64,000 nt of DNA from Spiroplasma tabanidicola (GTDB lineage: Bacteria; Bacillota_I; Bacilli_A; Mycoplasmatales; Mycoplasmataceae): NCBI RefSeq assembly GCF_009730595.1, contig NZ_CP046276.1, positions 992,001-1,056,000 on the forward strand, read 5' to 3'. The number at the start of each line of letters is the position of its first letter. Positions within the stretch are counted from its first letter, which is position 1. Shown here one piece after another: positions 32,686 through 35,662 of this stretch. The translations under genes were made by a program, and so were the position numbers. Below the pieces are notes generated by a model. The model was not told where the DNA came from and ran no database searches. It worked only from the letters and a program-made list of their open reading frames with translations.

Positions 32686-32714
32686 TTTCTTACATTTGTA
32701 AGAAATTTTTTTAT
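32686..32714 (+). terminator. Terminator of rpmB
   Basis: Nine-bp perfect stem TTTCTTACA (32686-32694) with TGTAAGAAA (32697-32705), 2-base loop, then TTTTTTT. Confidence 0.85.
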
Positions 32715-32736
32715 TTTACAATAAAAAAGCACAAAT

Positions 32737-33999
32737 TGAACTTGTCAATTAAAATTGACATTAAAAATGTGCTTTCTCCATACGAAATTCGTATGGAGTT
32801 TTTTTATGTTTCAACATAGGTCTAACATAATTATAAAAATCAATATAATCTGAAATTATTATATAAATATTTGAAAAGTTTAACTCTTTTATTTTATAAG
32901 TATAAATACATTCATTTTTTATTGTTCCAAAAAAAGATTCGCACGCTCCATTATCAGGAGAGTTACCTCTTCTTGACATGGATATACTTATCTTGTTTTA
33001 ATCACATAAACTTTTTCAAGTTTCATTTGTATAAGGACTACCTTGATCAGAATTAATAATATTAGGAGTGCCTCTCTTTTTAATTGCAGAGATAAGGTTT
33101 GTATAACATAATTTACCATTAGGACTGTTAGATAATTTTCAATCAACAATTTCTGAATTTTATAAATCTTTTACAACAGATAAATATGCATTTCCTGATG
33201 CCGTCTTTATATAAGTAACATCTGTAACTCATTTTTAATTTAAACAATCTGCATTGAAGTTCCTTTTCAATAAGTTTTCATATCTCAAAGGACTAGATTT
33301 ATCATATTTAGGTACTCTTTTTTTGCGAACAGCTTTTAAATTATTGATTTTCATATATCTATAAACTACTCATGGTTTTAAGTTTTGATTAAAATATTTG
33401 TTTAAAAGTAGAGTTATCATGTTGTAACCAAAACGTTCTTTAAATAAATAGAAAATAAATTTAATTTTTATAGCAAGAATTCGATTATAGTTTTTGTTTA
33501 TAGGTTTTCCATTTTTTAGTCATTTTAAATAACCAAATCTTGAATCGCTTAAATATTTACAAACTAATGACAAAGTAAACTTTTTTGAATATTTAAAAAT
33601 GGTGAAGTACTTTTCTTTAGTTGTCTTCGCCAAATGCTTTTTTAGAGCTCGCTCCAATTTTAAAGCTTATCTTAATTCTTCTGTTGTCATATCGTCAGGG
33701 TCTTCAAAAATTCAATCATGAGATTTAAATTTCTTAATATTTCCTTTTGTTTGGATTCCGTTCCCTCATTCAAGAGCGCCTTCACCTTTAGTTTTAATTT
33801 CTGATTTTCATCTTTTTACTGTACTTGTGCTAACATCATATTTTAATGCAGCATCTGTTATTCCAATTTTTTTAGAATCTTCAATAATATTAATTTTTTC
33901 GTTTTTTGATCATTGTTTTGCCATATAAAAAGAACATCTCTCAATAAAATTTTAACAATAAAAGTACTTTTTTACTGTCAATTTTATTTTAGATATTCA
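32737..33999 (-). mobile_element. IS3-family insertion sequence, structurally complete, transposase inactivated
   Basis: 1263 bp. Ends are TG...CA with imperfect terminal inverted repeats of about 39 bases: left TGAACTTGTCAATTAAAATT, right (complement) TGAATATCTAAAATAAAATT, both continuing through GACA and TAAAAA. Flanked by a 4-base direct repeat AAAT (32733-32736 and 34000-34003). These are IS3-family features. Removing the element and one repeat restores AAGCAC-AAAT-GTGCTT (32727-32732 joined to 34004-34009), the hairpin of the fakA terminator, so the IS sits in its loop. Transposase is on the minus strand, in the same direction as fakA. Confidence 0.9.
32761..33924 (-). pseudogene. IS3-type DDE transposase with four in-frame stops
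   Basis: A continuous 388-codon frame without any frameshift, starting MAKQWSKNEKINII (helix-turn-helix), then an IS3 orfB part. DDE triad: D235 (VTDVTYI), D293 (NSDQGSPY), E329 (GACESFF), with 35 residues between D293 and E329 as in IS3 transposases. In-frame TAA stops occur at codons 86 (33667-33669), 230 (33235-33237), 255 (33160-33162) and 309 (32998-33000). At 230 and 309 the context suggests CAA (Gln) to TAA. No intact product longer than about 130 residues is possible. UGA codons in the frame are Trp, not damage. Confidence 0.88.
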
Positions 34000-34012
34000 A
34001 AATGTGCTTCTT

Positions 34013-35662
34013 TTATTCAATTCCCATAATGAAAGAATATACTTCTTGTCCTGCATCAACAACTTCATATTCTACATCAAAATTTTCATCTAAAATTTTT
34101 CTTAGGTCACTAATATCTTTGAAAGATGCATCTGTTCCAGTAAATATTGTGATTATTTCTGTTTTGGTTGAGATATATTTTGATAAATACTTATTGAAAA
34201 GGTCAACAAGTTTATCTGTAGATGCTATTACTTTTTTATCAACAGACATCATATATTGTCCTTCTTTGACGAATATACCATCAATATTCGCATCTCTTGC
34301 AGCTTTATTAATTGTTACTGAAGTAACATTTTTTATTGCTTTAGAGACATTTGATTCGTTTTTTCTAGGTGTTTCTTCTGGATCTAAACTTAAATATCCG
34401 GTCATACCTTGTGGAATAGTTTTGGTGTCTAAAACAATAACTTTTGACATTTTTTCAACAGCCTTTGCTTGCTTAGCAGCTAAATAAACATTACTGTCAT
34501 TTGGGAAAATATAAACTATTTCTGCATCTACTTCTTCAATTGCCTTTAAAAAATCGTTAGTAGAAGGATTCATTTTTGCTCCCCCATCGATCACATAGTC
34601 AATATTCAACTCTTCTTTGAAGTATTTTTGCATTCCTGCTGATCTTACAACAGCAATTGTTGCAAACTTTTTAGCTAAAGTTCTTTGTTTTTGCGCTGTA
34701 GCTTTTGCTCCACCTGGTAAATTATTTGCATCTTTTACTTGATGTTCGGCTTGAATATTCATATTTTCTACTTTAACTGTTTTAAATTCTCCATATTGTT
34801 GTAAATATGTTAAAACTTGTCCTGGTAATAATGCGTGTGTATGAATTTTTAAAATATTTTCATCAATAACAGCAACAATTGATGTGTTTCCATATTGTTC
34901 TAGTTGTGAACGAATTGGGTCCACTTTTAATTTATTTATTAAATCGTTATTTAAAATAACTATAGTTTCTGTACAATAACCAAACTCTTGTTCAATTTCT
35001 AAATCTATATTACCACCAGTATTTTCTTCTAATTTTTTTAATTTTTGTACTGGTTTAAAATTAACAGCATAGTGTTGTGCACCTTCTAAAAACTTAACAA
35101 AACCATATCCACCACTATCTACAACACCAACTTCTTTTAAGGCTGGTAATAAATTAGGTGTGTTTTCCAATGATTTATTTGCTACTTCTATAGTTTTTGC
35201 TCAAAAAGTTTTTACATCAATGTTCTCATCTTCTATTGAATTAATAAAATCACTTGTTTCTCGTACAACAGTTAACATTGTTCCTTCAACTGGTTTCATA
35301 ACAGCAGCATACGCTACTTCTTTTGCCTTTGAAAAGGCTTGTTTTCAAGTATCTAAGGTTAAAGAATCATTATTCTTCATTGCGTTTGAAAATCCTTTAA
35401 TGATTTGCGAGAAAATAACACCCGAGTTACCTCTTGCCCCCATTATTAATCCTCTTGCAAACTTTGTCATTAAAGCACCGATACTATCAAAGTTTTCTTT
35501 TTCTATTTCGGCTAACCCATTTGTGCAAGTTAAATTCATGTTTGTTCCTGTGTCACCATCTGGAACTGGAAAAACATTTAACTTATCAATGTGTGGATAA
35601 TTATTATATAAATTATTCACACCACTAGTGATCATGCCTTTTAAAATTTCTACATCTTTCAT
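34013..35662 (-). CDS. fakA: Fatty acid kinase catalytic subunit FakA (YloV, DAK2 family)
   Basis: 549 residues. N-terminal DAK2-like kinase domain (1-200) with the nucleotide/Mg motif NVFPVPDGDTGTNM and GARGNSGVIFSQI; middle domain with HTHALLPGQVL; C-terminal domain ending FTGTDASFKDISDLR...VVDAGQEVYSFIMGIE. FakA phosphorylates fatty acids bound to FakB, and the acyl-phosphate feeds PlsX/PlsY; FakB is not in this window. Ribosome site GAGGGTG. It follows asp23 by 105 bases and has its own promoter. Its terminator has been split by the IS. Confidence 0.95.

Follow-up and report, generated by a model that had tools for sequence, protein, structure and literature searches.

An IS3-family insertion sequence (IS) of Spiroplasma tabanidicola most likely carries a transposase that chooses the centre of AT-rich intrinsic terminators. 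The insertion points, with their mostly 3- or 4-bp target duplications, hairpins, and A-run/T-run dyads, were observed in several species of two genera. The copy from which the analysis started lies in a stretch of 64,000 nt (hereafter the window) of a 1.28-Mb, single-contig genome in which TGA encodes tryptophan.

Results

An IS3-family element splits the fakA terminator

The element in the window ends in TG...CA, has AAAT on each side, and is one of 11 full-length or nearly full-length copies in this genome (Table 1). The IS3-type assignment of the original prediction was confirmed: the transposase matched the family model NCBIfam NF033516 (265 bits against a cut-off of 160) and also Pfam rve, and the DD35E triad (D235, D293, and E329) was invariant in the transposase alignment. 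Two overlapping reading frames joined by −1 frameshifting are usual, not universal, in the IS3 family. Such a pair was not found here, as the intact relatives in genome G011, read with code 4 (TGA = Trp), encode the transposase in one open reading frame of 387 aa. Judged by its in-frame TAA stops, the transposase gene in the window is dead. A search of a phage collection gave no match, and the named genome collection yielded relatives only from S. phoeniceum.

The insertion lies just beyond the fakA stop codon (34013–34015, minus strand). When the flanks were joined and read on the minus strand, the arms AAAAAAGCAC (left flank) and GTGCTTCTTT (right flank) rebuilt a 10-bp stem with one G-U pair around the AAAT loop (−10.8 kcal/mol, z = −3.3), and none of 200 shuffles folded as well. 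The rebuilt hairpin adjoins a T-run and lies 13 nt beyond the stop codon of fakA. Because the gene for ribosomal protein L28 has a separate hairpin with T7, the split hairpin was assigned to fakA, which bears out the claim that the insertion divides the terminator of this gene. The original prediction was to be given up if relatives with an empty site lacked the hairpin. The comparison showed a hairpin and a T-run within a few bases directly 3' of fakA in 16 of 19 congeners, for example TAATAATTTTAGAGCTTTTAGCTCTTTTTT in G009; in the remaining three, another gene lies close downstream of fakA. Across congeners the position of the fakA hairpin is conserved and its stem sequence is not.

Table 1. 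Features of the insertion locus (window coordinates).
Feature	Position	Strand	Basis or remark
rpmB, ribosomal protein L28	32465–32674	+	Pfam Ribosomal_L28; convergent with fakA
rpmB terminator hairpin and T7, uninterrupted	32686–32712	+	read directly from the sequence
3' arm of the split fakA terminator, with T-run on the minus strand	32723–32732	−	fold of the joined flanks, hairpin score
Target duplication AAAT, left copy (terminator loop)	32733–32736		
IS3-family insertion sequence	32737–33999	transposase on −	1,263 bp; ends and duplication
Outward −35-like box TTGACA, right end	32743–32748	−	sequence
Transposase pseudogene	32761–33924	−	one frame, 387–388 codons, four TAA stops
Inner motif AAAGCACA	32768–32775	−	one base off AAAGTACA of L003/L005; pairs fully with stranded arm TGTGCTTTTTT
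Hairpin CTCCATACGAAATTCGTATGGAG and T7	32776–32805	+	predicted terminator against transcripts entering at the transposase 3' end
Ribosome-binding region of transposase, AGATGTTC	33932–33939	−	predicted partner of left tip
−10-like TAAAAT, left end	33986–33991		opened by the last base of the left tip
Left tip GAATATCT	33991–33998	−	predicted to pair with the ribosome-binding region in RNA that comes in from outside
Target duplication AAAT, right copy	34000–34003		
5' arm of the split fakA terminator	34004–34013	−	fold of the joined flanks, hairpin score
fakA, fatty acid kinase subunit A	34013–35662	−	Pfam FakA-like_C, Dak2, FakA-like_M

Insertions centre on terminator hairpins in two genera

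The sites of 53 insertions were read in seven mollicute genomes of two genera: 11 copies in the genome of the window, 25 in G011, five in G003, G005, and G009 (same genus), and 12 in G033 and G046, which belong to another genus and whose transposase is 42% identical. A target duplication was present at 44 of the 53 sites and measured 3 or 4 bp in 39 of these 44. The centre of a strong hairpin lay within 3 nt of the cut at 32/53 sites, with about 5% expected, and over the 53 sites this centring exceeded that at random, intergenic, and 3'-end-matched positions (within 60 nt downstream of genes). Relative to the 3'-end-matched positions, and with the copies within one genome not fully independent, strong hairpins were enriched in the genome of the window (5/11 sites, p = 2e-4), in G011 (13/25, p = 2e-10), in G003/G005/G009 (3/5, p = 0.002), and in G033/G046 (11/12, p = 8e-14). 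The G033/G046 site GGGTTAGGTACTTAGT (IS) AGTACCTAACCC is a near-perfect example. Moreover, further lineages have single copies in terminators (L136/L137, L138, and L140). Some recent copies have no clear hairpin (L028, L055, L058, and L059). Stem sequences varied between sites, and no membership in a family of REP or palindromic-unit repeats was found.

The main interpretation of the original prediction, like its observation, is thus supported: the other copies compared, in the genome of the window, G011 (25), and G033/G046 (12), mostly lie at the centres of terminator-like hairpins. Its proposal of loop-precise targeting holds as a centring over the copies, but the precision is only within about 3 nt.

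With regard to gene layout, 22 of 46 sites were located between convergent genes, compared with 52 of 561 background gaps, and one of the 46 between divergent genes. An orientation bias that would drive the transposase from the upstream gene was rejected among the 23 tandem sites (12 with, 11 against). The element is not positioned for transcription from the gene upstream.

Several loci were recorded as observations in their own right. In different species the element occupies one terminator, AAAACTAGTGTTAACACTAGTTTT, but is oriented oppositely in L136/L137 (G034 and G037) and in L113 (S. phoeniceum), which reflects either repeated insertion at one base or inversion of the segment between the arms. 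L066 in G011 seems to have inserted beside CTGTCATTTTTATTTTAGATATT, a left-end remnant from an older copy. In addition, a second, different IS3-family element of about 1.35 kb with 12–14 bp duplications also occurs in terminator hairpins of congeners (L278, L281, L284, and L290 in G015; L279, L282, L288, and L291 in G001), and in roughly half or more of the 13 copies read, its duplication takes in either the loop or one arm. That two unlike elements share the same kind of target within one genus is striking.

An A-run/T-run dyad is probably the main cue

The commonest feature shared by the sites was a dyad, with an A-run 8–14 nt to the left and a T-run 8–14 nt to the right of the cut. This dyad was present at 40/53 sites, compared with 2% of intergenic positions (p = 8e-34, 7e-14, and 4e-12). 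Furthermore, insertions in the genus of the window showed a more uniform A-run distance than background hairpins did (p = 0.001 and 0.012). A-run dyads of this kind are expected to curve DNA. Because hairpin-poor sites in G011 and its congeners carry the dyad too (p = 1e-7), the dyad, more than the hairpin, is probably the main cue.

It could be argued that the hairpin itself is the target, recognized as a palindrome or an extruded cruciform, and that the A- and T-runs are incidental to terminators. The insertion at hairpin centres agrees with this explanation, and recognition of this kind may be at work for elements inserted in the loops of REPs. Throughout the analysis, the terminator background was estimated from 400-kb samples per genome; a background of all hairpins after genes contained non-terminators, and an A-dyad background was used instead. 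In G033/G046 the inner stem clearly surpassed that of other A/T dyads (p = 1e-4), but it added little in G011 and near congeners (p = 0.04) and nothing in the genome of the window (p = 0.38). Moreover, some of the hairpin-poor copies that keep the dyad are nearly identical to the youngest ones, which makes stem decay unlikely. Recognition of the hairpin as such is a weaker candidate on these data, and we favour the dyad as main cue, supplemented in one lineage by the hairpin. An explanation without any target choice, in which insertions are random and only those in harmless spots between gene ends survive, is very improbable. The sites do lie near gene ends, often between convergent genes, but hairpins remain enriched when the comparison is with positions up to 60 nt downstream of genes, and the centring of the cut is accurate to about 3 nt. 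Moreover, in Spiroplasma ixodetis a relative is present in 30 copies that show little regard for terminators.

A relative in S. ixodetis has other targets

The S. ixodetis genome (G106; plasmid NZ_AP026935) holds 31 full, near-identical copies of this relative, whose transposase is 44% identical to that of G011. The centre of a strong hairpin was found at only 2 of the 30 sites read. The S. ixodetis relative does not target terminators, and therefore terminator targeting is not general to the group. The motif TTGTAA or TTGCAA occurred within 22 nt at 15 of 28 S. ixodetis sites and in 2 of 28 control windows (p = 1.5e-4), and TTGTAA is also found in the inner left repeat of the element itself, GAATTGTAACCTTTG. 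The three insertions L254, L256, and L272 hit copies of one repeated stretch at points that differ by no more than about 3 nt, beside TTGTAAACTAG.

A tentative alternative, to which the TTGTAA/TTGCAA enrichment lends weight, is that target half-sites are mimics of the inner terminal repeat of the element itself, and that terminators are hit since an A-run followed by a stem resembles this repeat. The targets in G033/G046 matched their own AAAAAGTTACTT better than the A-dyad background (p = 6.5e-6), and those in S. ixodetis matched their own motif (p = 3.7e-5; p = 1e-9 for TTGTAACC, which was chosen after looking). Against this, the motif search was exploratory, G011 and the genome of the window showed no signal beyond the A-run (p = 0.71), and a permutation of own versus other motifs over seven lineages was not significant (p = 0.39). 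Mimicry is thus a hypothesis that these sequences support in two lineages and that failed the wider test. In its general form, transposases would find mimics of their inner repeats as inverted half-sites around the cut, terminators would imitate such a pair, and a change in the S. ixodetis repeat would have shifted the target preference genome-wide; we regard this account as doubtful.

The leader and the exit side of the element

In RNA that enters from outside, the left tip is predicted to pair over 8 bp with the ribosome-binding region of the transposase gene, and this pairing was found in all 13 aligned leaders. For the tip pairing together with the next helix, 97% of cells were paired over the 13 leaders, compared with 47–59% when slid; few pairs changed on both sides, so that covariation support is modest. 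The leader of L028 folded 5.2 sd better than shuffles. These findings indicate that, in RNA reading through from outside, the leader can cover the ribosome-binding site. The original prediction had placed the transposase gene in line with fakA; the layout is true, but the copy is a pseudogene, the orientation of copies is unbiased, and the leader has this masking capacity. Short left-end remnants in L032 (G016) and L033 (G004) keep the tip/ribosome-binding pairing with a changed inner stem, which hints at further lineages of the element.

At the opposite end, a terminator of the CTCCATACGAAATTCGTATGGAG type was also found in other copies of the family. The window copy is the only one whose inner motif matches the stranded arm fully, and this pairing (−18.4 kcal/mol) suggests that a terminator may be rebuilt at the exit side, a single case and maybe due to chance. 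As a general effect, terminator rebuilding from an IS end and a stranded host arm was rejected over the copies (p = 0.34 and 0.44), with only the window copy and L005 standing out.

Proposed mechanism

We propose that the transposase reads two inverted A-runs, about 8–14 bp either side of the cut. In the AT-rich genomes studied here, such A/T dyads would be typical of terminators, above all of two-way terminators between convergent genes. The element would move by copy-out/paste-in via a circle in which the two ends meet to form a promoter: with 3 nt at the junction, the TTGACA box and TAAAAT would be spaced by 17 bp. The joined ends of known IS3-family minicircles carry such a junction promoter, and the promoter role of the TTGACA box is proposed here by analogy. 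Once inserted, the element splits the host terminator, and transcripts that enter at the transposase 3' end should be stopped by the opposed terminator that the element itself carries near that end. Read-through from the fakA side would carry the left tip, whose pairing with the ribosome-binding region should keep the transposase silent, whereas a transcript from the circle junction would begin within the element, past the tip, and so be without the pairing arm.

Discussion

The element described here uses intrinsic terminators, an entire class of regulatory sites, as landing places, as seen in dozens of natural insertions in several species. Since related elements with terminator and with other targets coexist, target choice by an integrase-like transposase becomes directly testable. 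In addition, a terminator is divided by every insertion, a point of importance when transcript ends are read in genomes as small as these. Site-selective IS3 elements of the IS1397 and ISKpn1 style are already known; what is new is the terminator as target. The open-licence literature yielded no account of IS3 elements inserted in the loops of terminators, which is weak evidence of novelty.

Group IIC introns are also mobile and likewise target intrinsic terminators. They are retroelements that insert after the hairpin, whereas the element in the window inserts in its centre. IS2, a member of the IS3 family, inserts at target sites with intrinsic curvature, but unlike for the element in the window, no terminator preference is reported for it (PMC3299598). 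IS30, which belongs to another family, moves by copy-out/paste-in and uses nearly palindromic hot spots, with a second preference for its own ends; these hot spots are not described as terminators (PMC9333248). IS911 of the IS3 family shows targeted insertion next to its own inverted repeats, according to work cited in PMC7986276, so that sequences of an element's own ends can figure in target choice. By that account IS911 inserts next to the tip, whereas the resembling half-sites found here are separated from the cut by about 10 bp, and it is the inner repeat that they resemble.

The nearest known systems are IS1397, ISKpn1, and ISPsy8, which insert into REP/palindromic units and, for IS1397 and ISKpn1, have a target reportedly set by the transposase (PMC1525189). 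Like the element in the window, they are IS3-family elements with a DDE transposase and a palindromic extragenic target, and insertion at the palindrome centre, a trait of IS1397, recurs here in the 32 sites cut within 3 nt of a hairpin centre. In contrast to these elements, which target one REP sequence family, the element described here enters unrelated terminators that share an A-run/T-run dyad.
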